A DNA stretch of 64,000 nt from Bugulina stolonifera (lineage: Eukaryota; Bryozoa; Gymnolaemata; Cheilostomatida; Bugulidae): positions 9,372,501 through 9,436,500 of the forward strand of contig OW285190.1 in assembly GCA_935421135.1 (NCBI GenBank), given 5' to 3'. Shown piece after piece: positions 1,844 to 54,548 of this stretch (position 1 is the stretch's first letter; each line of letters starts with the position of its first letter). A program made the position numbers and the translations under genes. The notes below the pieces were generated by a model. It was given only the letters and a program-made list of their open reading frames with translations. It ran no database searches and had not been told where the DNA came from.

Positions 1844-4800
1844 TTAGTTCTCAGTTGTTTCTTTAGGAGGAAGATTCTCCAGTTCGGCTGCCAACTTCCG
1901 GTGCTTTTCTTGGTCTGTTTGCAGCTTCTTCTGTGTTTCAAACAGCTCAAACTCATTTCTGAGGTCACTATATAACGAATCTCTGATGCTATAGAGCCGT
2001 TCTACATACTTCCTACAAATAGTCAGTCTTGGTGTAACATGTACTAGACTTTTCACTTATAAGTACCCTGCTGCCGAATAACACACATTTCCAACCAGTA
2101 ATATAAGCTGTATTGCTAAGCCTGTTATTGAGTGCAAAATATGGCCTAACATTAGTTCCAGCACAACATAAATATTGTGGCTTACCATATTTTGTTGCAA
2201 TGTTTGGCCATGGTATTGGCTAAACATTCAGACAATGTTTAGGAACAGCATGACCGTTTGTAATGGCATCATATGCCCACATTGGTGACCCAGTAAAATA
2301 TTGTAACTTACTGTGACCTACATGTACTTTTCTTTTTTGTTAAACATGTTTGGTACCCAAATTGATTTACTGATTTCATGTGTTACTGAATGCAAATGCG
2401 TGTTATTGTGGTTTTGAGTGAGAACATTGATGATTGGACAGAAAATTTAGAACAGAATTAAAAGCAACAACAATTCAAAAGTGCTTTTTGTCAAAATAGC
2501 AATTACTCACGCTTAGTAAATCGTCTGAGCTCTAAAAAGGTTCTCTAGTGTCACAACCAATTTCCCAAAACAATTAAAGCAGTTGACACATTGGTTATAG
2601 GCTGCAAAAATATTTTAGTTGATATTTCCTTAGAGTGTGCTGACTGAACCCGTTCACTCTCTCTAGCCCTAGACACGCTTGCATGGCTGTATCACAGCTG
2701 TACAAACCCAGCTACCCATTCAGACACACCGACATTCTAGTAGCAATTTCCCACCCACAGTAAAGTAGGCAACCTTTAATGTTCATACATACTCAACAGA
2801 TCCATCTCGACTCTTGTCATGTCTGTGTCTCTGAAATGCTTTAATAACTTGTTCTACTTCGAGCTCATACTTCTCTTTGAGCTGATCTTCCGACTCTATG
2901 TTACCCAGCTCTTCAGGTGAGTTTAACTGAAACAAATGTACACGCATTATGAATTGCCACATGTGTGCTTCTGTGAGCAAAATGAGATGAATCATTTGGG
3001 ACTATCAAATATTTTCAACACTCCAAAGTACATTGCACGTATTAGGTTTTAGCCACTCATGAACACCACAAAGTTATGATCTACAGTAGCTCACATACTT
3101 CTGTGTTTGTCACTTTGAATATTGCAGTTACATGTAATCCTTGTTAGGAAACATACCAGGAGAGTACCATAGCACAACCACATACCTTTTTCTGAATGCT
3201 GGTAAGCTCCTCTTGCTTGTCTTTAAATTCTTTCAACAGGAGCCCATCCTTCAAGGCTTCTGATGAGCTTTTAGTCTGTGGCAAATCTTCAGTTTCCAAC
3301 CATTTTTTCTGTGCCTAGAATAAAAAATCATCAGTTCTATACTGCAAAAAATCAATCCAACAGTAATATTATGAACTGTGCTTCAGCTTTTCTGGAAAGC
3401 ACAAAGTTACATGCAATGTTAAGGGACTAGGAAGGCAAACCTACATAGTAAATCAATGTGTCTATCACATGTCTATCACCCTTGCCCTTGTCAGTGATGT
3501 CTTACCATGTACGTGGGTATCACAATAATTTATGAAAATTCTACCTGGAAGTGGGAAATAATTTCTCGGGCTGATGACCAGTACAGCTGCTCCCCTTCTT
3601 TTCCTGGTTTGGTATCACAGAGAGATTGAAACAGTAATTTTGCAACTTTGCAAAACTCTTCGGGTACCTCTGCAACAATAAAAACCTGTAAATTACAATT
3701 TTTTGATTTATGTTAGATCTGGACTAAAATTTCATGATTCAATGGATAAAGGTTGACATTGCTAACGGAGTGAGTATTCAACACAAATTCTGATAGATGA
3801 AGGAACATGATGAACTCCAGAGCAATGTCCTTTGTATAATACAGAAAACACGTTAACCATATAAAGCATGAAAAATTTAGCTGCATTTCAGAAGCACAAA
3901 AAATATGTGGTTATGAGAGTTAAAATCACAACTTCTACATTGTAAGAAAAAACGCAAGTGTAAAGAATGATGTGTGCCTAACAATGTGAAAAACCTTAGA
4001 TAATAATTTATATAGCAGGCAAACACTTTTTTTATTCCAAACAGCAACAATAGTAGTATAGTCAGTGCAGATCTACACAGACACCCGGCCATTTCCGCGT
4101 CGTATTAGCCCTAGATCCAAAAACTCCCCGGGCGGACGACCACCCCACCCGTCCTCTTGCCCCTTCCTCTCCCCTAAACCTCACTCTATGTGCAAAGCCC
4201 TAGAACCTACTCCCCCCATCGCGGGTGGGGTTTCAAAAACCTCATCGGCTGTTCCGCGGAACCCAGTCTAAAGAGCAAACCCCGCGCCCCGCCCTCGCCC
4301 CGTCCCACGGCTCGGGCGAGGGGGCGCGCGTACGCGCGCGCCCCCCCGCCATGCGAACCCCACCCGTCCTCCCTCCACCCGTCCCCGCCCCTCCCCACCC
4401 CTCCCCTCCGCCTCGCCCTCCGCCTCGCGGCGGTTCTCGTTTGCGAGTCCAGCCGTGGCCCCACGCCGCCCTCCCCCCGCCCATCCCCCGCCCCTCCCCC
4501 GCCCTCCCGCCCCAACGACCCGTCGCGGCCCTCGCGGGCGGACCGTCGGCTGGAGTAGGGTGAAGCGAAGGAAAATACGGGTTAGAGTAATGGTGTGTGA
4601 TGTATTCTAGAATAGATGATATACGACTATGAAAAATATGAGTCAGGGTAATGATACACGAGTTTGTTTTAATTTTCAATGCGTTTGAGAGTAATAATAT
4701 AAAATCAATCGATAAAAAACTTGATATGTGACTACGAAAAATATGAGTAAGGGTAATGATACGCGAGTTTGTTTTAATTTTCAATACGTTTGAGAGTAAT

Positions 4801-7800
4801 AATATAAAATCAAGCGATAAAAAACTTGATATACGACTATGAAAAATATGAGTAAGGGTAATGATACACGAGTTTGTTTTAATTTTCAATACGTTTGAGA
4901 GTAATAATATAAAATCAATCGATAAAAACCGATATACGACTATGAAAAATATGAGTAAGGCTAACGATACACGAGTTTGAGAGTAATAATATGAAATCAA
5001 TTGATAAGTAGACACGAATGAGTGTGAATGACAAAAGTTTTTGCCTCAAAACTGTGCAGTGGCGGGGAGGAGACGCTCGCCGAGGATGGAGTCTAGAATG
5101 GCACAATCGTAGAATGTTCTCCCGCTCTTGGAAGTCTTCTGTCCCTTGTACACCATCACGGAGGGGAGGAGCTCTTTCATCGAAACTGCCAGACGTCCCG
5201 GAAGGAAGACCTCTCCCTTTTTTTCTTCGTTTCCAATCCGGCACTCGTAGGTGGCAATGGAGTTGCTCGCATTATCACCATCACCGCATCTTGGGACGTA
5301 TGTGGGTCGGAGCGCGGTCACCACCAGCACAGAACCAACGGGGAATGAAGATAGCGTTTGCACTCGAAAAAATTCTTCCAACTAGGCCAAGGTCTTCTTT
5401 CTCAAGTCACCGGCCAGCTTTTTCATGGCTGCTCCTGGCAGGGAGCACACGCTCTCGATACGGTTGAATGTGTTTTGTCCTTTAGCGGTCTCCTGCTGTC
5501 CCAAGTACACCATGATCCTAGGTGGAAGGGTGAGGTCCTTTAGCTCCTCTTCTTTGACATCCGCTAGCTTGGGCATGGCGTGACGAATGTTGGTGTGAAA
5601 GCTGATGCAATGTCTCATCCCCTTGTCATCCACATAGCTTGCCCTGGCTAAGAATGCTTTTCCGAATGCCGTTTCAACCACCGAACCTCCACTCACTTCT
5701 AGCACAGTTCCTGGCTCTAGCTCTGACAGCTTCACCGTTGTCTGCAGAGAGCTCCTCTTCTCCGCTCCCATGCTCCTACAATAACGAAAGTGGTGTATAT
5801 AGATCCGACAAAGCGGTTAAACGGGAGAAAGATAGTACGGTAATTTATAGATATACGAATAGGGCTACTTACATTAGGGTTGCCGCCACTGCACGAGCTT
5901 TCTCCAGGCTTAGTCCCCCGCTCTTTTTCTTCCCCTTGCAAGGGGACTTGGTAGCTTTTTTTCCCTTCGTCGTCTCACCACCATCCATTTCTTCCGTAGC
6001 CGTATCGGCTCCGTGGCCATCATCATCATCATCATCTGATATTACAACCACCTGGGGTTTCTTCTTTTTCTTAGCACAGATTTCATCTCCTTTTGGGTTC
6101 TTCCTCTTCTTGGTTGTTGTGGTCTCGCCCCTATCCAAGGCCCGCTCCGGGGAGGATGGAGAGTCCGCCATGTTAGAAAGATCCTTTCGGGCAAGACTCC
6201 CCACTCCTATTATTTTCCCCTTCTTCCGTGCCTCTTTTAACGCATCCACCTCTTCTTTCCTCTTCTGACTGCACTCTTCTTCTTCAATAATTCCATCCAT
6301 TTGTGAGTCCGTTAAGCCCGCAAATAACTCTTCTTGGTTTTGGACTATGTTGTCAGTATCCATTGATAATGTACTATTGTAGTAGTGTAGCTGTACAGTA
6401 GTGATGTGCTGAACTTTGAATGCTGAGACTGTGATCCCACTCTCCCTTTATACATCTGCTCATTTCTTGACTCCTCCCTTTTTTTTATCCAATCCCAATG
6501 TGATCCGATGCACCCCGATGTGAATCCGAAGCCTCCCGATGCACCCCGATGTGAATCCGAAGCCTCCCGATGCACCCCGATGTGAATCCGAAGCCTCCCA
6601 ATGTGAATCCGAAGCCTCCCGATGCATCCCGATGTGAATCCGAAACCTCCCGATGCACCCCGATGTGAATCCGAAGCCTCCCGATGCATCCCGATGTGAA
6701 TCCGAAGCTTCCCGATGCATCCCGATGTGATTCCGAAGCTTCCCGATGCATCCCGATGTGAATCCGAAGCTTCCCGATGCATCCCGATGTGATTCCGAAG
6801 CTTCCCGATGCATCCCGATGTGAATCCGAAGCTTCCCGATGCATCCCGATGTGATTCCGAAGCTTCCCGATGCATCCCGATGTGATTCCGAAGCTTCCCG
6901 ATGCATCCTGATGTGTCCCGATGTGTCAATTCACATCGGGGTGCATCGGGATGCATCGGGAAGCTTCGGAATCACATCGGGATGCATCGGGAAGCTTCGG
7001 AATCACATCGGGATGCATCGGGAAGCTTCGGATTCACATCGGGATGCATCGGGAAGCTTCGGAATCACATCGGGATGCATCGGGAAGCTTCGGATTCACA
7101 TCGGGATGCATCGGGAAGCTTCGGAATCACATCGGGATGCATCGGGAAGCTTCGGATTCACATCGGGATGCATCGGGAAGCTTCGGAATCACATCGGGAT
7201 GCATCGGGAAGCTTCGGATTCACATCGGGATGCATCGGGAAGCTTCGGAATCACATCGGGATGCATCGGGAAGCTTCGGATTCACATCGGGATGCATCGG
7301 GAGGCTTCGGATTCACATCGGGGTGCATCGGGAGGCTTCGGATTCACATCGGGGTGCATCGGGAGGCTTCGGATTCACATCGGGAGGCTCCGGATTCACA
7401 TCGGGGTGCATCGGGAGGCTTCGGATTCACATCGGGAGGCTTCGGATTCACATCGGGGTGGTATTGCCAAGGGTGGGGAAATGGTTAGACTCCGCCCACT
7501 GAATACTACTATTTAAGGTATGAGTTTCTCACTCTAGCAGTATGAACAATCAGCCTCTAGTCAACAGAGTGAGAGTAAACAGAGACAGCTACCTACTAGT
7601 CAGCGCCTGATCAGAGATGTCAACAAGTACAACATAAGGTTAGTGCTAAATAGGGTAATCGGCAGCAATTGTGAAGTGTCTATTGTATATAACGCTATTG
7701 AGCCAAAAATAAAAAAATTAACTTACACCCTACTACTATATATTTTTTATAGGGAGACTAAACAGAGACACTTACCTACTAGTCAGCACCTGATCAGAGA

Positions 7801-10800
7801 TGTCAACAAGTAAAAAAGGTTAGTGCTAAATGAGGTAGTTGGTAACAATTGTGGATTGCTAATAGTAGTATGAGGTAAAAGAATAACTTACACCCTACTA
7901 TTTTGTATTTTTATAGGGGGGGAGAGCTCTCGTCAGGCCGAGCACACCTGTCAACTATGCGGTCTGGTTCTCAAAACAGCGTTTTCTCTAGACAGGCACA
8001 CGAAGAGAATGCATGCACAGGCTCACCCACACAAGTGCCCGGTTTGTGGCGGATGTTTTGATGGGAGGAGAAAGCTAGGTCATCACATGAGACGATTTCA
8101 TAGCGAGGCCAAGGCGGAAAAAGATGAGGGGGATGCAGAGAAGTTTGATGATGTTTTCTGGTCCAAACTTCCAACAGCTGAAGAGGGGGATGAGATGGGG
8201 GTGCTACTAGCCCGCTATTGGAGTTCGATCAGGTCCACAATACACTCTCGTCCTGTAGAAGACATTCTCAACGTTCGAGTGTGGAGAGGGGAATGTGAAG
8301 ATGAAGGAGATGAAGAGGTGTGGACTAAATTGAGAGCGATGTGGAAGAGAGTACCTTGTACTGTGAAGATTAACTGTAGCGCTGGAGTCATCCTCGAGCA
8401 TAAGACCAGTGGAGAGTTGCGCTACTTTCACTCATCAAGCAACAATGCCGCGTTCTTCCCCAAGCCAAGACTGATCAGAGCAGAGAATGAGATGAGAGAG
8501 TTTTGCGAATCTGTGCAGGAGCTCGACTTGAGAGAGAGGTCAGCACAAAGGAGACCGAACACCGCTTGGGTTTTACGTCACATTGCAAATTTGACATTCT
8601 ACATCTATAAACTCCTAGAGATTGGCAAGGTGGGTGGTGTAGTGAGCAAACTCCCAGACTACATACTTAACAACCGACATGTGATAGCACTAGATGTAGA
8701 CTTTTGGGCCAGAGGAGGTGCCCGTCCCTACCCAGACAAATTGTGTTTCTTTAGATGTTTGGCCATGATGTATGACTGTAACTGCGACCCAAAGAAGGGA
8801 TGTTGCTGTCATCGCCCCTCTCAGACCACAACACATCGTTTGTTTAAACAATACATGAGACAATCTAGATCTTCTTCCCCACCCTCATCAACTTTGTCAG
8901 ACTTTCCCGGGGTGGACGCGAGTGATCTGCTGGCCTTGGAAGATCATTTTGACATATCTATAACAGTCTTCTGCCTAACTGATGAGGGGGTAGCTCCGAT
9001 AGTTTGGTCATCTGGGGCACGAAACAAAGCCCGTAAACTCTTTGTCAACATGTACGAAAAACACTTCAGCTGGATAAAGAATGTTGATTCGTTTGCCAGA
9101 TGTTTCACCTGCAAGTTGTGCGATGGCGCTTTCACACTTTTGTCCAGCCTACGGCGACATAAGTGCTCGCCAGAGGAAGCATCGGTGTTTGTTTTCCCTG
9201 GTGGAACGTTTGGACCCCCGCCAACCATATTCACAAAACTCAAGCGAGTGGCGGGAATAGAGGTAGTGAACCCCGACCTCTTATACTACCCCTACTATAT
9301 CACCTATGATATTGAATGCTTCATGCCAAAAGACAACCTACAAACTAACACCTCCACAATGACTTTTAGTGCAAGACACGAGTTACTGAGCATATCTGTA
9401 TGTTCTAACGTCCCGGGGTTTGAGCAGGCCAAGTGTTTTGTGACGAGTGTCGACAGCAAGGATGGAACGAAGTGCATTCGTCAATTCGTCCAATACATAG
9501 CAAAGATTGCTGACGTGGCAGGAGATTTGTTCGGAGAAAGATTCCAGGATGTACGCAAGCGACTCTCTACTTTCCTTGCGGATCGGGCGGATAGAGAAGA
9601 AGCCTTTGCTGACGAAAAGTTCTCTAACGTCTCGACTTACAGGGTGAAGTCCGGTCTCTCCGGATTAGAAAGAGAGTTAGAACAGCACATCTCCAGCGTT
9701 CCGGTGGTTGGTTTCAACTCACAAAAGTATGACTTAAATATACTAAAGGGACCTTTGCTTCGCTCTCTACAAGAGGAGGAGGGAGAAGATTTTGTCTTCA
9801 TCGTTAAGCGTGTTAACAGTATGTCCTGCGTGGAGAGTAGACGTTTTAGGTTCCTTGACATATGCAACTTTATCGCACCGGGCTTCAACTACTCCAAATA
9901 CTTGAAGGCATTTGGCGTGTCAGAGAGTAAGGGATTCTTTCCTTACGACTGGGTAGATTCCCTGAGAAGGTTGGATTATTATGGACTCCCTCCCCGAGAG
10001 AGTTTTTTCAACTCGCTGACTCAGCAAGAATTGAGCGAGCAAGATTATCACCACTGTCAGGTCGTGTGGGAAAGAGAGAACATGGAAACGTTCAGGGATT
10101 TTCTCATCTGGTACAACAACCTCGATGTGGCCCCATTCATCGAGGCCATTGCACGTCAGAGCTCTATCTATCGACAAAAGGGTATTGACATGTTGAAATC
10201 CGCAATCTCGCTTCCAGGCTTGGCTATCAGATGGTTGTTTATGGAGGTGGAGGCCCGACCTTATGGCTACTCTCCTCCACAAGCCGCTCTTCCGCTGCAT
10301 AGGTTAATGTCTCTCCGAGACGAACTTTGCAACTCGCAACCCATATGTCTGTTCGATGAGGAGAGCAAAAGTCTGTACCATACTCTTCGCGATAACCTTG
10401 TGGGAGGGCCAAGCATTATCTTTCACAGACATCATGAAGTTGGAGTGACCTCTATTCGAGAGAAGATGTATGGCACATCCGCAAAACCCTGTAGGTCCAT
10501 TCTGGGAGTTGATGCCAACGCCCTCTACCTATACTGTATGATGGGGAATATGCCTACGGGTTATCCCAGGCGGAGGCTAGAGAGCCGAGGCTTTGCTCTA
10601 GAACCTATTAAAAAGTTCAGCAAAGTGGCGCATGGTTGGTTAGAGTTCCAATCGTGGAAGAGAGGAGAGGTCATCCTTCACCAACAGAATGGAGGAGAAA
10701 TGAGGATAGGCTGTCACAACCTACCAGTGGATGGTTATAGCGAACAGAGTCGGACGGTGTACCAATTCCACGGTTGCTACTGGCATGGGCACGAGTGCGA

Positions 10801-12913
10801 GCTAGGAGGGAACGGAAAAGGTGTCAGAAACATGACGAATGAAGAGCTCCGGGTGGACACTGCAAGGAAAGAAGATTACATCAAGGCTCTAGGCTATAAG
10901 CTCATCACCACTCGGCAGTGTGAGTGGGAAGCGCGAGTTCGTTCGGATGTAGAAGTTAGGACATTTCTCGCCATCTTCTTTTCTTCTCTCTATCCGGAGA
11001 GGGGTTACGTCAACCTCGATAAGATAATCAATAACATTCGTAGTGGAGAGTACTATGGTTTAGTGGAGTGTGACATTTCCGTACCCGAAGAGCTAAAAGC
11101 GAAGTTCTCTGAGATGGCACCTATTTTCAAGAATATAAACGTGGGAAGAGAACACCTTAGCGAACACATGCGCGCTTTTGCCGAACGGAACGGATTCTTG
11201 AAGAGACCTCAGCGAATGCTCGTGGGGAGTCTTTTTGGCGAGCGAATCACACTACTCTCCGATCTGGCTAGATGGTATCTAGATCAAGGTTTGATAATTA
11301 CCAGGATCTATCAGTTTGTTCACTTTATCCCACGAGCCATCTACAAAGACTTTGGTTCTTCGGTCTCAGACGCAAGAAGAGGTGGGGATGTGAACCCCGA
11401 CCTGGCCCTCTTGGCCAGCACCAGCAAGCTCGTTGGGAATTCAGCCTACGGAAAGACCATAACAAATAAAGAGAAACATAAGACTGTCAAGTATGTGGAG
11501 ACAGTAGAGGAGGCGGCTGTCAAAGTGAGGAGTAGGCACTTTTCTAGTCTCAACGAAGTTGATGAAAACTACTTTGAGATAGAGCTTCACAAGAAAAAGG
11601 CAAGTGTTGACAATCTTTTTTTTTTTATTTTGATTCTTGATTTGACGAAACTTTTTCTGAGTGGTAGGGTAAACTCTCTCTCTCTCTCTCTCTTTCTTTC
11701 TTTTAGATTCGAATGGATGTTCCATCTGTCGTAGGATTCGTTATCCTCCAGAGAGCCAAGTTGAGAATGCTAGAATTCTACTACGACTTTATGGATAGGT
11801 AAGTAGAACTAGACTATACAAAGATTTTATCAAATCCTTCTCTATTTATTCTTTGGTGTCAACCCCAACCCCCCCCCTCCCCCTACAACCCGTCCGTTTT
11901 ATTTTCACAGATTCGTCAGCAGAGAGGACTTTGAGTACGTAGAAATGGACACGGATAGCGCTTACATGGCTCTGAGTGCTCGTAGTATAGATGAGGTCAT
12001 CCGAAAAGATAAAAAAGAAGAGTTCTACAGAGAATATGGTAGATGGTTTCCCAGACCCTTCTGCGATAGGCACAAGGGAGACTTTATCACGACCAAGGTG
12101 CTCGGCCAAGAGTGGGAGATGAGGGAATGTTGTGAGAAGGTGCAACGATACGAAACACGAACCCCCGGCCTGTTTAAGGAGGAGTTTCGGGGGGAGGGGG
12201 TCATCGCGCTCAACTCAAAAACATACTTTTGCTGGTCCGCTGATGGTGATAGCAAGTATAGCAGCAAAGGACTAAACAAAAGAGGAAACGCCCTAACCAA
12301 AGAGAAGTTCCTCTCCGTGCTCAGGACAGGGGAGTCGGTGAGAGGGGACAATCGGGGTTTTATCAGAAGAGGAAACCAAACGTATAGCTACACCCAGCTA
12401 AAGACCGGACTCACCTACTTCTATGGTAAGCGGAAGGTTGCAGAAGACGGGGTGAGTACGAGTCCTATAGAATGCTAGTACTGATTTCTCGGAGATGAGA
12501 CTACTTCATTCGATAAATTGGAGAGTAAACGAACAGTGCATCATAACCCTTGTACATATACCCGTATAATTTTTTTCACATTCACTCTCTATTGTAAGGG
12601 GTTTCCGTCCTCAAAACGGAGGGTTTACCGGTTGTAGCCTTAAAACCGAGCAATAAAACACTAGCTAATACATTAAAAACCATTTACCTCTCCAAACCAA
12701 AGGGGTAGACGGTACTAGCGCAGCTTCCGCTCATACTCACCCCTTATCAGTTCACATTTCTTCTATTGTCTTCATTCGTAGGTGGGGGGTGACATCGCAC
12801 GCGCACGATGCGCTCTCTCCCTATCGGAGTTTGCTACCCGGGGGAAAGTGGACGCGGTGGTCAAAGAAATTGGTGGCGAGTCAACGACATCATCGCGGAG
12901 GCGGGTCTATTTG

Positions 12914-12959
<46 letters not shown>

Positions 12960-15900
12960 GCGATGAGAAAACAAGCATCCATCTATCCCGTTTATCTATT
13001 TCTATTTCTACCCCTCCGAGCGATGATGTCGTCGGCTAACCTCCTCGCGAAGTCTACGGTTTGAAGCGCGGAAGAGCCACCGCCTTCACTTTCTCTCGCC
13101 GCTCGTCACGGGGACGGGCGATTTCCCTAGGGGAGGGTCCGGGGGAAATGAGGGTTAAGACGCGAGTCTTTCATCGAAGGTCCGGGGGCGCTCGAACGGA
13201 GGAGCGCGCGAGTGCGGTGTCACCCCGACCAGTTCAGTCTCAACAGTCCCCGGCGAAGAAATCATCCGGAAGCACCACCACCACTCGGTAAGTTTCTTAT
13301 AGTAGTATAGTCAGCGTCGTAAACTCTGCACGGGCACTCCGCACGGGTGTAGCCTATCATTACTCTAACCCGTATTTTCCTTCGCTTCACCCTACTCCAG
13401 CCGACGGTCCGCCCGCGAGGGCCGCGACGGGTCGTTGGGGCGGGAGGGCGGGGGAGGGGCGGGGGATGGGCGGGGGGAGGGCGGCGTGGGGCCACGGCTG
13501 GACTCGCAAACGAGAACCGCCGCGAGGCGGAGGGCGAGGCGGAGGGGAGGGGTGGGGAGGGGTGGGAAGGGGCGGGGACGGGTGGAGGGAGGACGGGTGG
13601 GGTTCGCGGGGCGGGGGGGCGCGCGTACGCGCGCCCCCTTGCCCGAGCCGTGGGACGGGGCGAGGGCGAGGCGCGGGGTTTGCTCTTTAGACTGGGTTCC
13701 GCGGAACAGCCGATGAGGTTTTTGAAACCCCACCCGCGATGGGGGGAGTAGGTTCTAGGGCTTTGCACATAGAGTGAGGTTTAGGGGAGAGGAGGGGGCG
13801 AGAGGACGGGTGGGGTGGTCGTCCGCCCGGGGAGTTTTTGGATCTAGGGCTAATACGACGCGGAAATGGCCGGGTGTCTGTGTAGATCTGCACTGACTAT
13901 ACTACTAACAATTTTTGAGTGTGCAAAACTACAATAACTGTATGCCATAGGATTTTAGTTTGCATACTGCTGGGACTCCATTCACTGCCTGCAGAAGCAA
14001 AAGCAACTTCTCTGCCAGGATATGGAAAGTTGTAAGCCTTTATTGACTGGAATGCTTCATCAATTCCAACTGTGTTGCCATCAGTATTTGAAGCCTTCAT
14101 TTTCTACAAAAAATTATGAAAGCATACACACAACATAAGATTACTGTGTCACATTAAAAACAAATGATATTTTTTACCATGTACCTTTAAACCTGTGGTT
14201 GTTGAGATAATTAATTGTTTAATAAGTAAGTTAATACAAAATTATTTGTTGGAATAATAATTTACTGTCAATGTCGATTTCCTTGTTTGTGTTACAATAT
14301 CTGTTTATGTCAATGGCTTTGTGTGGTCTGCTGCTTTTGCATATCAAGTAAAACCACAACCATTTCCTTGCTGCTATACTTATGTATTATGTTCATCATC
14401 TGTTATAACCAATGATCAGTTAGTGTGCAAACGTCAAACGTTGAAGTTAGACTTACAACATTATTGATTATTGATTGTAAGTTAATGTAATGAAGACGTT
14501 GATTTGATACTGACTGGAACACACTACATTTCCACAAAACAAAACGATGACAGATTTCTAGGTGCATATTGCACCTTTTTTTCTAACTGAATGAAATATG
14601 AGTGCTAAAGCATGAATAATGCGGTCGTGGTAAAAGGCGTGAGCGTGACGTGAGAATGAAATGGTATGAGAGCGTGAAGACAACTCTATCTAACGCTAGA
14701 ATATTTATACTAGGGAGGAGCTAGACGGAAACAAAGCCTTTGGTTGGCGGTTGGGGTTTGGGGTAAATGAGAGTTTTGCTGCTACCGTGAATAATGTTTG
14801 TTGCACAGTAAATGGAAGTCCCCATCAAAATAATACGAGTAAATGTTGTTAGCGGCTACAACGATTGGAGGGAGAGAGCACCTTGGGCGGTACTGATTAA
14901 AACTATTTCCTCATTGGTTAAATACTACTTATTTCGCCTTTATGCGTGAATACCCTCATGATCTGTTTTGATAAAAGCAACACTACATGTATATGCATAT
15001 TAGGATATTGCAGGAGATATCAACTAATTTTGCTCAGTATTACACAGAGCTGCTATAACGCTTAGCTCGAGTGCCTGGTAATAATATTAATTATGAAAAA
15101 TGGAGCTTCCTTTCAGAACAAGCATTGAATACAGCCCCAAGTGAACTAGTAGAACATGCCTGTTGTGCTTAGATGGGAATAGAAAGCCATCAAATACACA
15201 TAACTTTGTAGCAACGGTCAGGTAGTTGTATTGAAAACAGTCTTAATCACATTAAATTTTAGACAGAACAAGCAATTTGAGAATCACTTTGATAAACATA
15301 CCTACTTCAGGTCGAAATTCAAATCAACAAACATGTTGTTGGAGCAGTTATACAGAATTTACATTGCTTAAATGTTTCTCTGAAATCGACCAGTAAAAAA
15401 GTAAATTCGGAAAACTAAGTCATTAGAACTTGTAGAAGAATCGGTCTCTTTTGAAGGGTCCCTTGATTGTCAAAAGTGTTTGTGAAAATGCACTAATGCA
15501 TGCATATAAGCGTATAAGTTTCTTCAGCATACCGTGTCATGAAACAGATCGCCATCCTCTCCAACCTCACTACCACCATAATCTCGGGTAGCCACTATCA
15601 AGGACTTAAATACAGGTGTTACTTGTTCTCCGGCTTCTCGGGAGATTTTCAACTTCGCAGATTCAGCACAGGTCTCAAAACAAATTAGCTACCATTTTAA
15701 TTCAAGTACATAGATGTTGATGCACAGGTGAGAAAATTCTAAACTGTAACGACTACATTGGGGATGATACACGAAACCTCCCACCACATATCTCTTAATC
15801 AAGGAAAAGATCCAGCAGTATTCAAGAAGGATAAAATATGGCAGTCAGGTGGTAGGCGTTAGGGATCATTTTGTCATTCAACAAAAAAAGCAAACAGGCA

Positions 15901-29410: not shown

Positions 29411-30571
29411 TTGATGGCAGGCACTAAAGCCCTTTTAGGTAGGACAGCATGTGTTAGGTTAGGTCTTATAAAGTTGTGTGCAACAGATTCATTGAACATA
29501 AATATTGTTGACAAAAGTAGTCAGTTTTTTAAACAAGAATTCAGTGCATTTTTTAAGGGCTTAGGAAAAATGCATCGTGAGGTTGACATTCAGATCAAGC
29601 AAGACAATTAGTCCTCTATATGCCATCTATACTCCGCGTTCAGTTGCCTATCCCTTGCTTAGAAAAGTTAAAACAGAGCTCTAAGCCATGGTAGATGAAG
29701 GTGTTATCTTTGAAGTACAGCAACCAACTGATTGGGTATCTCCTATGGTGGTTGTTCCCAAAGCAAATGGCCAAGTGCGTGTGTGTGTCGATTATAGTAC
29801 ACAATTAAATAAAGTAGTTTGTAGACAGGTGTATCTGATGTCTCATGTTGAAGCAAGTTTAGCAAAACTGGGCAATGGCAAAAATATTTACTAAGTTGGA
29901 TGCTAACTCTGGATTTTACCAAATACCATTATCTGACAAGTCAAAACTTCTTACCACATTCCTTACACATTTTGGTAGATTTGCATACAATAGACTCCCA
30001 TTTGCTAAAATTGTATCAGAGGTTTTGAGTGGATTGGAAGGAGTGGTTGTACATATGGAGGACGTTTGTATTTGGGGGCAGTCTGTAGAGGAGCACGATA
30101 GACGCGTCCCTGAGGTATTAAGGTGTACTTCAGATGCTGGTATGACGCTGAATGAGTCCAAGTGTGAATTTTCATGTAGAAGCATAACATTTCTTGGCCA
30201 TGTCATATCTGGTGATGGTATTAAGCCAAGTAAAGAATTGATTTAAGTTATCCAAGATTTTTCAACCCCCCCAACACATAACTGATGTACGCAGTTTTCT
30301 TGGCATGGCAAATCAGCTTAGTAAGTTTACTCCGGTATTAGGGAGCTTGAGCGACCCCTTAAGAACTTTGCTGTGTGAAGGTACGCAGTGGTGGTATTGG
30401 GACACCTCTCAAGAAAGTGCTTTTAATCTAATCAAGACTGAATTTTGTCGTTCCGTGGAATTAGCAGCCTACAACCCTACTTTTCAAACTGTGATTCAAA
30501 CAGATGCTTGTCGCAGCAGCCTAGGTGCAGTGTTGCTACAAAGACAATTCCTTCAGAAACCTTCAGAGTAG
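29411..30571 (+). pseudogene. Reverse transcriptase remnant
   Basis: Pieces in different frames: an RT start region (WVSPMVVVPK), then FTKLDANSGFYQIPL, then a catalytic box altered to HMEDV where the family has YxDD, then FLGHVIS. Split by stops and frameshifts near 29894, 30246 and 30571. Confidence 0.75.
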
Positions 30572-31389
30572 TGTCTGCTGCTTCTAGGTCATTGACTGAA
30601 ACAGAAAAACGCTATGTAACCATAGAACAAGAGGCACTCGGCATTGTATGGGCATTAGAAAAGTTTAAAGATTATATTATTGGTTTCAAGGTAGTAGTTC
30701 AAACCGACCATAAGCCTTTAGTGCCCTTGCTAAGTGACATAGAATTAGATAAGCTTCCCATACGAATTCAGAGGTTTAGGATGCGCTTAATGAGATACAA
30801 TTATGTCATAGAGCACATTGCAGGAAAAGATAACATAGTAGCTGATGCTCTCAGTAGATCTAATGTAAAACTTAGCCCTCATGATGTTACTTTTGTTGAG
30901 AAGGTGGAAGTTTACAGTTTAGAGATGTTGAAAGCTAATGCTTCTGATAGAAGGTTAAACCAGCTGAAAAAGTTACAGTTGGAAGATGAAGTATTGGCAA
31001 GAGTTAGATCACTTGTTCAATCAGAGTGGCCATTCTACTTAGCAGCAGAAGACTCTGTTCTGCTTCCATTTTATGAAAACCGTTCCAAATTATCACCAGT
31101 AGATGACATTTTGGTGTACGAAAGGAGAATTGTCATTTTGATGTCCTCTAGAATGGAGATGATTCGCAGAGTACATAAAGGCCATTTAGGAATTACAAAA
31201 TGTCGTGATCGTGCTCGACAAGCCATGTGGTGGCCAAGGATGAGTCAGATGATAGCTGAAATGGTGCGAAACTGCAAAGTCTGCCAAAGACACGCAAATG
31301 TAGTGAAAGAACCTTTGATGAGGTGCGAGTTTCCACAACATCCTTGGGAACGTGTAGGTAGTGATATGCTTTACTTAAACAATGAATAG
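30480..31389 (+). pseudogene. RNase H and integrase zinc-binding part
   Basis: RNase H block (QTDACR at about 30499, EQEALGIVWALEKF, QTDHKPL) followed by an HHCC integrase finger (HKGHLGITKCRDR ... CKVCQRH). Ends at a TAG at 31387. Confidence 0.75.
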
Positions 31390-49500: not shown

Positions 49501-52500
49501 ATGGAAAAATGCAGTAAAATGTATAATATCAATATTGTAATGGTTTCTGGTTTTTCGTGCGGTCGTCCGTGGACGACTGCCGATCCCAAAAATGAAGTGT
49601 CTGTGAGTGATGCTAGGCCTTCTCATTACATGAAAGATCGAGCGGTCTCAGTAGTCAAAGTACTACCAGAGACGACCCATCTGGTCCCGAGTCTAGCCTG
49701 GAGACTATACTATGAAAGAGAGTGATCTGACCTAGTAGGCGGTTCCTAAGCGAATGACCTGACAAAAGGAAGTGAAAGTCTCTGTATCAAGTATAGATGT
49801 GTCTTTATTGAAAGCCATGCAAAGACTGAGACAACAAATGATAAAACATGGTCTTTTATATAGTATAAGAACTTCGGCCCGATGTAGTGTCGGGAAAAGA
49901 CGACGTAGGGTCGTCCGGAAGCTGCGCAACAACACGGCGGCCGGAAGCCCGACGGCTGACCCAAAATAGGTCAGGTTATACACAAGTTGCTTATAATCAT
50001 CCAATTCATATACAAAATGAATATCAAGTGATTCTGAGAGGTCGGGCCTCTTTACATGGGTATAAAAGGTACCAAAAGACTCAGTAATTGCCATACATGA
50101 ATGTACAATGGTATATAGTTAAGTAGAATGGATATAAACACATAGATACACGTATGTAGACATTAAATGAATGGTTTAGACATGCAATATAGTTGAGTAT
50201 GAGTACACGAGCAGCTAGGTATGAGAGTACGAATGTTAGCTGAATAGCGCTGTCGCAACTACTAGGCACTTAAGGTGCTATGAGGTTTATCCGGGTAGCT
50301 GGAGTCGTATACAAATGTCCTGTACCATTACAATATTCATCTAATTATAGGCACTTAGACTAATACTCGATGTAGGCCTTTCAGCCTAATAGTGTGATTA
50401 AAATTACTGTTTATCCAAAGAACCACACAATAGTTAGAGTTCTGGTTTCTGCTGTTCTAGTACATAGTCTAGACATAGCACAAGAATGTTAGTATTCCTG
50501 GGTGGTCGGCCCTCGGCGTCGGCCCTTAAGAGTTGTATTGAACATTACAATATGAGTCTATGTGTCTAACTAGCAATTGTTTCTCTAAAATGTGTCTGTG
50601 GACTCATTATGCGTCTTAGTTGGTCGGTGTGTCATAACAAAAAATTCTCAGCATAGGTTGAGGGTTGGTTTGACCCATGAGTAAGAGGGAAAGAAGCTCG
50701 TCTACGGGAATTTTTTTTATGTTCTCCTCAGCTTAAGAAGTTGAGTACATGAGTCGTTGGCGTTGAACAAGTAGACAACCTTGTTGAATCATGATGTGCC
50801 TCCTCATCTCTAAACAAGTATAACTGCATGTACTGCAGCATAACCACAACAATGCACAATGTACATGTGCACAACTTTGGCGGTTACTCATCTGGTTCCG
50901 ATTCCAGCTAATGCCAAGTAAACATACTATTTTTCATTTACTTTGGCAGTAGTAGTATAGTCAGTGCAGATCTGCACAGACACCCGGCCATTTTCGCGGC
51001 GTATTAGCCCTAGATCCCAAAACTCCCCGGGCGGACGACCACCCCACCCGTCCTCTCGCCCCCACCCCCTCCCCTTAACCTCACTCTATGTGCAAAGCCC
51101 TAGAACCTACCCCCCCCCCCCCCGATCGCGGGTGGGGTTTCAAAAACCTCATCGGCTGTTCCGCGGAACCCAGTCTAAAGAGCAAACCCACCGCCCCGTC
51201 CCACGGCTCGGGCAAGGGAGCGCACGCGTACGCGCGCGCCCCCGCCCCGCAAACCCCACCTGTCCTCCCTCCACCCGTCCCCCCAAAATTCCTCCTTAAA
51301 CAGGCCGGGGGTTCGTGTTTCGTATCGCTGCACCTTCTCACAACATTCCCTCATCTCCCACTCTTGCCCGAGCACCTTGGTCGTGATAAAGTCTCCCTTG
51401 TGCCTATCGCAGAAGGGTCCGGGAAACCATTTACCATATTCTCTGTAGAACTCTTCTTTTTTATCTTTTCGGATGACCTCATCTATACTACGAGCACTCA
51501 GGGCCATGTAAGCGCTACCTGTGTCCATTTCTACGTACTCAAAGTCCTCTCTGCTGACGAATCTGTGAAAGTAAAATGGACGGGTTGGAGGGTGCTGACA
51601 CCGAAGAATAAATAGAGAAGGATTTGATAAAATCTTTGTATAGTCTAGTTCTACTCACCTATCCATATGTGTACACATGTTAAAATATCTTTATATAATA
51701 GTTCAAACACAATTGAATGAATAAAAGGCACATATGTAAAAGAGTATGACATACCTATTATTAGCAAGAAAAGGCTGTGTGCATGTGTTAAGTCAGCATT
51801 ATGTAATTCATTAAACAAACTTTTTACAATACTAGCAATAGAATAAATAAAAGATTGTGTACACATGTTAAAATACCATTATATAATAATTTAAACACAA
51901 TTGAATGAATAAAAGGCACATATGTAAAAGAGTATGACATACCTATTATTAGCAAGAAAAGGCTGTGTGCATGTGTTAAGTCAGCATATATAATACATTA
52001 AATAAACTTTTCACAATAGTAGCAATAGAATAAATAAAAGTTTGTGTACACATGTTAAAATACCATTATATAATAATTTAAACACAATTGAAAGAATAAA
52101 AGACACATATGTAAAGGAGCATGTCATAGCTATTATTAGCAAGATAGCTTGATAGCATTATATACAATAAACACTTCACAATTGCTACCAATTACCCTAT
52201 TTAGCACTAACCTTATGTTCTACTTGTTGACATCTCTGATCAGGTGCTGACTAGTAGGTAGCTGTCTCTGTTTAGTCTCACTCTGTTGACTAGAGGCTGA
52301 TTGTACATACTGCTAGAGTGAGAAACTCATACCTTAAATAGTAGTATTCAGTAGGCGGAGTCTAACCATTTCCCCACCCTTTGCAATACCACCCCGATGC
52401 GTCCCAATGTCAATCCGAAGCCTCCCGATGCACCCCGATGTCAATCCGAAGCCTCCCGATGCACCCCGATGTCAATCCGAAGCCTCCCGATGCACCCCGA

Positions 52501-54548
52501 TGCACCCCGATGTCAATCCGAAGCCTCCCGATGCGCCCCGATGTCGCCCCGATGTGCCCCGATGTCAATTGACACATCGAGACGCATCGGGATGCATCGG
52601 GGCACATTGGGGTGTATCGGGAGGCTTCGGATTGACATCGGGGTGCATCGGGAGGCTTCGGATTGACATCGGGGTGCATCGGGAGGCTTCGGATTGACAT
52701 CGGGGTGCATTGGGAGGCTTCGGATTGACATCGGGGTACATCCGGAGGCTTCGGATTGACATCGGGGTGCATCCGGAGGCTTCGGATTGACATAGGGGTG
52801 CATCGGGGCACATCGGGTTTGGATGATAAAAAAAGATGAGTCAAGAATTGAGCAGTTGTATAAAGGGAGAGTGGGATCACAGTCTCAGCATTCAAAGTTC
52901 AGCACATCACTACTATACATCTACACTACTACAATAGTACATTATCAATGAATACTGACAACATAGTCCAGAACCAAGAAGAGTTATTTGCGGGCTTAAC
53001 AGACTCACAAATGGATGGAATTATTGAAGAAGAAGAGTGCAGTCAGAAGAGGAAAGAAGAGGTGGATGCGTTAAAAGAGACACGGAAGAAGGGGAAAGTA
53101 ATAGGAGTGGGGAGTGTTGCCCAAAAGGATCTTTCTAACATGGCGGACTCTCCGTCCTCCCCGGAGCGGGCCTCGGATAGGAGCGAGACTACAACATCCA
53201 AGAAGAGAAATACCCCAAAAGGAAAAGAAGTGAAAGAAGATGAAATCTGTGCTAAGAAAAAAAAGAAACCTCAAGTGATTGTAATATCCGATGAAGAGGG
53301 TGGTGATGATGATGATGGCCACGGAGCCGATACGGCTACGGAAGAAGTGGATGGTGGTGAAGTGCCGAAACCAAAAAAAGCTACCAAGTCCCCTTGCAAA
53401 GGGAAGAAAAAGAGTGGAGGACTAAGCCTGGAGAAAGCTCGTGCAGTGGCAGCAACCCTAATGTAAGTAGACCTATTTGTATATCCATAAAACTCTGTAC
53501 CATCTTTCTCCCGTTTAGCCGCTTTGTCAGATCTATATACACAACTTTCGTTATTGTAGGAGCATGGGAGCGGAGAAGAGGAGCTCTCTGTAGACAACGG
53601 TGAAGCTGTCAGAGCTAGAGCCAGGAACTGTGCTAGAAGTGAGTGGAGGTTCGGTGGTTGAAACGACATTCGGAAAAGCATTCTTAGCCAGGGCAAGCTA
53701 TGTGGATGGCAAGGGGATGAGACATTGCATCAGCTTTCACACCAACATTCGTCACGCCATGCCCAAGCTAGCAGATGCGAAGGAAGAAGAGCTAAAGGAC
53801 CTTACCCTTCCACCTAGGATCATGGTATACTTGGAGCAGCAAGAGACCGGTAAAGGACAAAATGCATTCAACCGTGTCGAGAGCGTGTGCTCCCTCGCCC
53901 GAGCCGTCGGACGAGGCGGGGCGCGGGGTTTGCTCTTTAGACTGGGTTCCACGGAACAGCCGATGAGGTTTTTGAAACCCCACCCGCGATCGGGGGGGGG
54001 GGGGGTAGGTTCTAGGGTTTTGCACATAGAGTGAGGTTTAGGGGAAGGGAGCGGGCGAGAGGACGGGTGGGGTGGTCGTCCACCCGGGGAGTTTTGGGAT
54101 CTAGGGCTAATACGCCGCGAAAATGGCCGGGTGTCTGTGCAGATCTGCACTGACTATACTACTGGCAGTTCTTTTTATAAGCCCTATTTTCTGTGGTTAA
54201 AAACGGGTACAGGTTGTGTGCAATTATGCAACGATCAGCATTATTACTGCATACATCTACATGTATAATATGTTGTGGTAATCTGCCACAACTTTACTCT
54301 ACAAAATTTGCCTGACTGGACATCGACTAGAACTTAAGATCATTCATAAAGATCGTGTACCTAATTACTGGTATCATCTACAAATTACTGTACAAATTCT
54401 TCACTCACCTCTTGGCAGCAGTGTGACTCATCCCCTTTTTTTTGCAACTTTGTTGAAACTTTCTCATGGTTGACTGTATCTTGTGGTTACAATGATCACG
54501 CAAATCATCCTCTGTGGTGAAAGACTTAAGGTGATCCACCAAGGTGAG
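46580..54548 (-). CDS. Host coiled-coil gene, last two exons
   Basis: Exons 54548-54409 and 46826-46580 join across a 7.6-kb GT-AG intron with matching phase (two bases plus one) and end at TAA/TAG near 46580. The first encodes a helical segment (VDHLKSFTTEDDLRDHC ... KKGMSHTAAKR), reminiscent of the middle domain of GBP/atlastin-like proteins; the second a lysine/glutamate coiled coil followed by a glycine-rich hydrophobic end (MILGPPGALIGAIYGAI), perhaps membrane-associated. Earlier exons were not found. The intron contains four LTR copies and the deleted Polinton-like element. A GBP-like identity is a guess. Confidence 0.6.
46842..47609 (+). mobile_element. Solo LTR, family A, next to a splice acceptor
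   Basis: TGAAATGG ... CCATCACA, flanked by GTAT at 46838-46841 and 47610-47613. Its left end is 15 bp from the 3' splice site of the minus-strand host exon at 46826. Confidence 0.85.
47954..48654 (-). mobile_element. Solo LTR, family A
   Basis: Bounded by TGTAATGG and CCATTACA, flanked by ATAT at 47950-47953 and 48655-48658. Body matches the 33685 LTR in reverse complement. Confidence 0.85.
48659..49032. other. Unassigned gap
   Basis: Intronic, no feature recognised. Confidence 0.4.
49033..49400 (-). mobile_element. LTR fragment, family A
   Basis: Starts TGTAATGT and follows the family (GTCTTCTCATTACATGAAAG, GTGTCTTTATTGAGATCC) but loses similarity after about 49400. Truncated. Confidence 0.6.
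49536..50332 (-). mobile_element. Solo LTR, family A
   Basis: TGTAATGG ... CCATTACA with ATAT duplication at 49532-49535 and 50333-50336; about as long as the intact LTRs. Confidence 0.88.
50337..50944. other. Unassigned intronic gap
   Basis: No gene or repeat recognised before the deleted Polinton-like element. Confidence 0.4.
50951..51292 (+). repeat. Left TIR of the deleted copy (shortened)
   Basis: Matches the outer part of the complete TIR, then joins polymerase sequence within a G/C-run, consistent with a deletion at short homology. Confidence 0.85.
51293..51668 (-). pseudogene. Polymerase exon 4 remnant
   Basis: Reverse complement of about 12195-11791 of the complete element: the start of the last exon including the motif C region (here altered to DTGS), the preceding intron, and the last few bases of exon 3. 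The catalytic DTD is broken by D-to-G. Confidence 0.85.
51669..52165 (+). repeat. 188-bp AT-rich tandem repeat, about 2.6 copies
   Basis: Units begin GTGTACACATGTTAAAATA at 51669, 51857 and 52044. This sequence is absent from the complete element and sits where most of the polymerase gene was lost. Confidence 0.85.
52166..52345 (-). pseudogene. Polymerase leader exon remnant and promoter
   Basis: Reverse complement of the 7505-7680 region, including ATGTCAACAAGT, the donor GGTTAGTGCTAAAT and the TATTTAAG box. Confidence 0.75.
52391..52815. repeat. Palindromic 31-bp minisatellite, shorter version
   Basis: Same design as 6503-7461 but with GTCAATCC in the unit and fewer copies; the centre is CCGATGTCAATTGACACATCG near 52565. 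Again it separates the two promoters. Confidence 0.9.
52948..53898 (+). pseudogene. OB-like gene copy, broken
   Basis: Exon 1 52948-53462, intron 53463-53559, exon 2 from 53560, same structure as 6363-5046. A CAG-to-TAG change at 53591-53593 stops the frame ten codons into exon 2, and the second OB module is replaced by TIR sequence after about 53898. The N-terminal part is close to the complete copy with small insertions. Confidence 0.85.
53899..54163 (-). repeat. Right TIR of the deleted copy (shortened)
   Basis: About 265 bp, reverse complement of the start of 50951-51292, joined to the OB-like gene at CTCGCCCGAGCC. Confidence 0.85.

Follow-up and report, generated by a model that had tools for sequence, protein, structure and literature searches.

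The 64,000-nucleotide stretch of DNA analysed here (the window; positions 9,372,501 to 9,436,500 of contig OW285190.1) contains, at 4052-13906, a 9,855-bp element, designated class A, which is flanked by a perfect 6-bp target-site duplication (TSD) and encodes a family B DNA polymerase. Class A is probably the replication segment of a Polinton-like virus, or a virus-like transposon, whose genome is segmented, comprising A and a second class of elements, B, and probably also a third, C. The genes are split between the classes, which have related termini, 6-bp TSDs throughout and shared cis blocks, and A and B together account for the greater part of a single Polinton core set, in which the protease is probable and the penton a candidate by position only. 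On balance, we lean towards a tripartite double-jelly-roll DNA virus, whose three separately integrated, co-amplifying segments would reside in the genome of a eukaryote, probably an animal.

A family of elements with related termini

A sequence-only reading of the window had described an element at 4052..13906 with a perfect 6-bp duplication and inverted repeats of about 545 bp starting AG. This description was borne out by the TSD AACAAT (left copy 4046-4051, right copy 13907-13912) and by alignment of the A-type terminal inverted repeats (TIRs; left 4052-4600 on the plus strand, right 13358-13906 on the minus strand), which show 96.7% identity over 551 alignable columns and begin with AGTAGTATAG. 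A 6-bp TSD and AG termini are Polinton traits, and the long TIRs beginning 5'-AG that characterise Polintons/Mavericks are found in A. The same reading had proposed a genome-wide search for the TIR sequence, and a search with the 16-bp terminus (≤1 mismatch) returned 987 + 994 sites versus 7 + 8 for a reversed control; the A family is thus not a product of chance, the counts being inflated by an extra inner copy of the terminus in A elements. Using 34-bp patterns (≤3 mismatches), 346/347 A-type and 369/369 B/C-type ends were counted, with 0/0 in the controls; only 4 positions distinguish the two patterns, so that an end intermediate between them may count twice. The first 18 bp of the terminus are identical between A and the integrase-bearing B elements, and the B/C-type ends belong mostly to two classes, B and C. 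Genome-wide searches for marker sites (≤3 mismatches) gave 198 sites for the major capsid protein (MCP), 144 for the ankyrin marker and 355 for the polymerase motif, elements with several sites being counted several times.

Individual copies were read from ten A-type elements found via the TIR (including the window copy) and then from 17 loci of the terminus list on contig C1. A perfect 6-bp TSD, mostly of different sequence, flanks 22/22 of the elements scored, comprising 15 of A type (four of them deleted or rearranged), 4 of B and 3 of C.

Partition of genes among the classes

Classification of the copies by gene content, also proposed in the earlier reading, was carried out on the first 100 listed A-type and the first 100 listed B/C-type termini, which were paired into 96 elements (three places at the list ends were left out and five had no partner). 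None of these 96 terminus-bounded elements carries two different markers, markers being scored as exact matches only, so that absence is weaker than presence. Among the A-ended elements, 37 have one polymerase-motif site and 11 have two or three, whereas the MCP marker lies in 24 of the B/C-ended elements, the ankyrin marker in 20 and a pair of polymerase sites in 2; the remaining 2/96 bear no marker. The gathering of all genes in one element that marks Polintons/Mavericks is therefore absent from this sample, and the complementary genes and common ends expected of a segmented virus are both present.

This partition was also seen on closer reading. Integrase, ATPase, MCP and protease genes were not found in A by a Pfam scan of 15 of the element's open reading frames (ORFs), which gave only polymerase, zinc-finger, Vsr and chance-level matches, and a tblastn search of 15 A-type elements with the B-class proteins returned no match; in lacking integrase and capsid genes, the element thus agreed with the earlier description over the sequences searched. 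Conversely, the A-type polymerase is absent from the 4/4 B copies read, and the polymerase and small-gene modules of A were found in none of the 4 B and 3 C elements, apart from a 112-codon stretch of the common region in the 4 B copies. Mid-element probes of further C1 elements (25 in total) matched A in 12 cases, B in 8 and C in 4, one of the four C-matching probes covering only 95 of 401 bases, and the last probe matched the rearranged copy L028 at ~81%. Six of 48 B/C-type elements exceed 12 kb; the one that was read, L025/L026, is a C copy that contains foreign sequence. Of 20 probes placed in the other five, 15 have a full or partial match in B or C, and 5, from four elements, match none of the elements read, two of these being transposase and long interspersed nuclear element ORFs by eye.

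The polymerase of class A

The A element encodes a family B polymerase (PF03175, DNA_pol_B_2; E=1.9e-6), assigned from its sequence to the protein-primed type (pPolB). Among the hallmark genes of Polintons/Mavericks, this one was found in A only. The earlier reading had described the polymerase as uninterrupted, but the open frame 7874-11734 continues into what is predicted to be a GC-AG intron, and the catalytic motif C is encoded by a third exon. According to splice sites predicted from the DNA, the plus-strand gene would consist of a main coding exon (7874-11599, open from 7874, with a start position that is not fixed), a GC-AG intron (11600-11706), exon 2 (11707-11798), a GT-AG intron (11799-11910) and exon 3 (11911-12478), which carries motif C (YVEMDTDSAY) and the stop codon; no break was seen in the exons of the window copy.

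The main exon contains C2H2 fingers, and further motifs are taken to be vOTU-like (viral ovarian tumour-like; 8726 and 9059), exonuclease (9305 and 9704), Pol A (10505) and Pol B (11426). D288/C291 and H397 are kept in 12 aligned polymerase sequences and are read as the putative vOTU-like protease of pPolBs, a domain described in passages of PMC11071308. Between Pol A and Pol B, at ~10730-10945, lies a domain resembling very short patch repair (VSR) endonucleases, which matches the PDB Vsr profile with E=4.6e-5 and in which many motif residues are invariant across the 12 sequences. Homologues of the polymerase number 825 among the best 7,992 candidates scored, the top dozen being 46-54% identical, and several of the entries carry the source name 'very short patch repair'.

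Across the 66 pairs formed by 12 A copies, the summed nonsynonymous and synonymous differences per site (pN and pS) in the polymerase exon are 0.0081 and 0.0495, values that bear the signature of purifying selection. For the single pairs shown, pN/pS ranges from 0.14 (diverged copies) up to 0.64 (near-identical copies).

Integration and capsid genes of class B

Class B consists of ~10.7 kb elements with a related terminus, genes on one strand and the 198 capsid-marker sites. The rve integrase and A32-type ATPase typical of Polintons/Mavericks were found in B only: a 359-aa integrase (rve 2e-11, Chromo 1.2e-6, with a DDE motif by eye) and a 225-aa ATPase (Pox_A32 1.4e-6, with Walker motifs by eye). 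The best 150 of 263 candidates for the ATPase gene are 99-100% identical, one of them with a stop. A 461-aa protein is predicted to be a double-jelly-roll MCP; its model (predicted template modelling (TM) score 0.79, mean predicted local distance difference test (pLDDT) 75) matched the capsid proteins of grouper iridovirus, mavirus and Sputnik in the PDB (E 2-4e-15, TM 0.46-0.56, 10-13% identity), and its best viral-library match by E-value was a Cotesia bracovirus protein (25% identical, TM 0.33). A public assembly also contains, on a 3.4-kb contig, an MCP (P0121) that is 100% identical to the B protein across 97% of its length.

A 177-aa protein of B is a probable adenain-like protease, as judged from its H, D, Q and C residues in adenain-like order; its best PDB match is weak (E=0.049), there was no match to Pfam, and an alignment-free model (pLDDT 41) was unusable. 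A 215-aa ORF is a candidate penton by position only, with no match to Pfam or PHROGs.

Class C elements

Class C comprises ~9.5 kb elements, with 144 ankyrin-marker sites, and was read in copies L031, L034 and L025/L026. Its TIRs are of B type (98% identity over 710 bp between B19 and C31). The ankyrin gene (Ank 1.1e-5) has several exons by eye and is presumably IkB-like, as judged by eye, with a start resembling an IkB phosphodegron; a 485-aa ORF had no match in Pfam or the PDB. No core gene was seen in C, and the B proteins, the polymerase and the small-gene modules are absent from the three C elements.

Apparent exchange of cis blocks between classes

Apart from the terminus, the similarity of B to A is confined to one central block (80-94% identity; coordinates 2061-3713 of A). 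This common region, at 6112-7764 of the window, comprises 31-bp repeats, the small-gene start, a presumed divergent promoter and the polymerase 5' leader. Its repeats form a palindromic, iteron-like array of ~1 kb (6492-7457) with the core CATCGGG, which occurs 59 times in A, 44 times in B and 46 and 59 times in C elements, as compared to 30 times in the remaining 54 kb of the window, a background that includes a 3.2-kb derivative. The mean identity of the common region is 97.9% between A and B copies and 98.4% among A copies. In addition, a tree of the TIRs does not separate class B from class C but intermingles them (B_21_R pairs with C_34, support 1.0), and in one B copy the right TIR, and not the left, groups with a C copy. 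Given this similarity and interleaving, cis blocks appear to have been exchanged between the classes, which we read as segments that replicate together.

Several rearranged copies were also found. The 3.2-kb derivative at 50951-54163 of the window (TSD GGCAGT) is a chimera with A-type ends, the common region and C-like subterminal repeats, and it keeps an exon like 5869-6447 of A. L028, the one copy read among the A-ended elements with two or three polymerase sites, is palindromic, and the elements at C1:17537468-17546033 and C3:2413203-2421575 have B/C-type ends and two polymerase-motif sites in opposite orientation; these last three copies look like products of end duplication and segment swapping. 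Elements with both ends alike would fit linear, end-primed replication.

A one-piece Polinton in the same genome

A 15,102-bp one-piece Polinton (C1:12825931-12841032; L081, L082 and L083; TSD GATTAC) combines genes for a polymerase (PF03175 6.9e-28), an integrase (rve 2.3e-9) and an ATPase (Pox_A32 1e-11) and shares the first ten terminal bases with the A/B/C system. Over the matched parts, its polymerase and integrase are 24-27% and its ATPase 30% identical to their A and B counterparts, and the B MCP found no match in it; with identities of 24-30%, A and B therefore do not derive recently from the one-piece Polinton, which illustrates an undivided layout next to the split one. In a genome search with Pox_A32, six of the best 150 of 192 candidates scored 38.6-43.3 bits and the rest 23-28 bits, many of the latter apparently at places of B copies.

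Other features of the A element

The earlier reading had counted just one other clear gene besides the polymerase. This corresponds to a minus-strand group consisting of a lysine-rich/acidic exon of 192 aa (5869-6447) and two short modules of 144 aa (5385-5816) and 111 aa (5046-5381; no Pfam match). The exon is probably spliced to 5385-5816, as judged from the sequence, and its first 112 codons are those also present in the 4/4 B elements read. The two modules are weakly alike (36% over 22 aa, E=0.004) and are split in the window copy by a stop codon at 5382-5384; both lie within one 256-aa frame at 10/15 A-type loci, a 298-aa frame spans the whole first module and 65% of the second at 1/15, and the modules are absent from three rearranged loci of the 15. 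The only entry obtained when homologues of the small gene were sought was the window's own.

Subterminal direct repeats of 105 bp (3.5 copies) occupy 4617-4979. An extra, inward copy of the terminus, AGTAGTATAGTCAGCG, lies on the plus strand at 13301-13316, at the inner edge of the right TIR, so that the final ~606 bp of A resemble a mini-element; according to the 16-bp terminus list, this copy is found at one end only in most A elements and at both ends in the rearranged L027, L028 and L029. Elsewhere in the window, 30442-31389 is a retroelement fragment (RT_RNaseH 9.4e-19, Integrase_H2C2 6.4e-15). A search for five exact TTAGG units found none.

Proposed mechanism and alternative explanations

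In the tripartite model, A would serve replication, B integration and encapsidation, and C, with its ankyrin/IkB-like gene, interaction with the host, C being either a third segment or possibly a satellite. All segments would be recognised via one ~34-bp terminus and the CATCGGG iteron arrays, with ends and cis blocks swapped during co-replication. The A polymerase would prime every segment at the common terminus, and, as the anatomy of the elements suggests, the B integrase would insert all segments, A included, and the B capsid would package them.

The sequence-only reading had proposed a distinct compact lineage that replicates itself and either borrows its integrase or integrates by an unknown route. 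This account overlooks the partners that hold capsid, ATPase and integrase genes without a polymerase, each class lacking the genes of the other, and an unknown route is not needed. The borrowed integrase fared better, as elements with the same 18-bp terminus and 6-bp TSDs carry rve (2e-11) with a chromodomain, which may act on A. It had also been stated that relatives with the same TIRs carrying integrase and capsid genes would make this copy a simple deletion product. Relatives with the same ends and these genes do exist, but A is not thereby a deletion product, because 0/96 elements have both gene sets, A ends number ~346 and the polymerase appears to be under purifying selection. It is very unlikely that A arose by deletion from an ordinary one-piece Polinton and, being non-autonomous, was amplified in trans: although deletion, palindromic and chimeric derivatives occur within the A/B/C family and the terminus of the one-piece Polinton begins with the same 10 bases, this Polinton is only ~26% identical to the A polymerase and B integrase over the matched parts, and the presence of integrase, ATPase and MCP without polymerase in B would require two complementary deletions, each kept at hundreds of copies. 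It is also quite unlikely that B is the real virus, using the polymerase of the one-piece Polinton or of the host, with A and C as satellites like transpovirons to virophages. The lack of a core gene in C, the second Polinton lineage in the genome and the divergence of the A and B TIRs beyond ~34 bp are in its favour, but A and B share, and seemingly exchange, a common region, and A ends (346) outnumber MCP sites (198), while none of the B copies read has an A-type polymerase. Self-integration of A by means of the VSR-like endonuclease domain of its polymerase is hardly credible, despite the profile support and conserved motif residues of this domain, as the TSD and terminus of A resemble those of the rve-bearing B and one-piece Polinton. 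Vsr enzymes nick mismatched DNA, and none is known to make 6-bp staggered insertions.

Several observations weigh against a segmented virus, which remains the reading we prefer. It rests on integrated copies in one assembly of one host, and scans of IMG/VR, based on alignments of the polymerase and of the MCP, yielded no confirmed relative. Beyond ~34 bp the A TIR is unlike that of B/C. Near-identical polymerase copies reach the upper pN/pS value given above, and several copies have stops or frameshifts. The protease was assigned from motifs with a weak match (0.049) and the penton from position. Lastly, six loci have a different ATPase, the one examined being the one-piece Polinton, a possible helper, and a one-piece progenitor with other ends may have given rise to A and B. 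If the segmented virus is real, an integrating split genome makes the origin and persistence of segmented genomes directly testable, as hundreds of copies per segment lie with their insertion sites beside a one-piece Polinton in one assembly, and 'defective' Polintons elsewhere with polymerase only or capsid only would deserve a recheck for partners.

Comparison with known systems

With Polintons/Mavericks and adintoviruses, A and B together share the 6-bp TSD, AG termini, long TIRs, pPolB, rve integrase, A32-type ATPase and double-jelly-roll MCP. However, those systems carry their genes in one element, as in Drosophila-associated adintovirus 1, a single 14.5-kb contig (as given in PMC8363768), and in the Eupolintoviridae, with linear dsDNA of 15-40 kbp (as given in PMC12567637), whereas here they are distributed over separate insertions, ~9.7 and ~10.7 kb long, with a third class in addition. 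Among the open-licence PMC titles and starts of abstracts listed, no segmented or split Polinton was found, and one may be reported elsewhere; 'bipartite' refers in passages of PMC12220804 to networks and in those of PMC12567637 to other families.

Virophage/transpoviron pairs likewise include one element that relies on the functions of another, but transpovirons are episomes beside complete viruses (PMC7031253), whereas here two classes split the core set. Vesanto virus, which is bidna-like with a pPolB and up to twelve segments (PMC8363768, in part), and the Bidnaviridae (PMC11071296, in part), which acquired their pPolB from Polintons according to passages of PMC11071308 and PMC11071296, resemble the present system in their segmented genome, pPolB and inverted terminal repeats. 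They are ssDNA viruses with a parvovirus-type capsid, in contrast to the integrated dsDNA, double-jelly-roll MCP and rve integrase of A/B/C, and membership of the Bidnaviridae was rejected since the MCP found is double-jelly-roll and not parvovirus-type. Bipartite begomoviruses, unrelated viruses with circular ssDNA, have a common region, and there too a cis block is similar on both segments.

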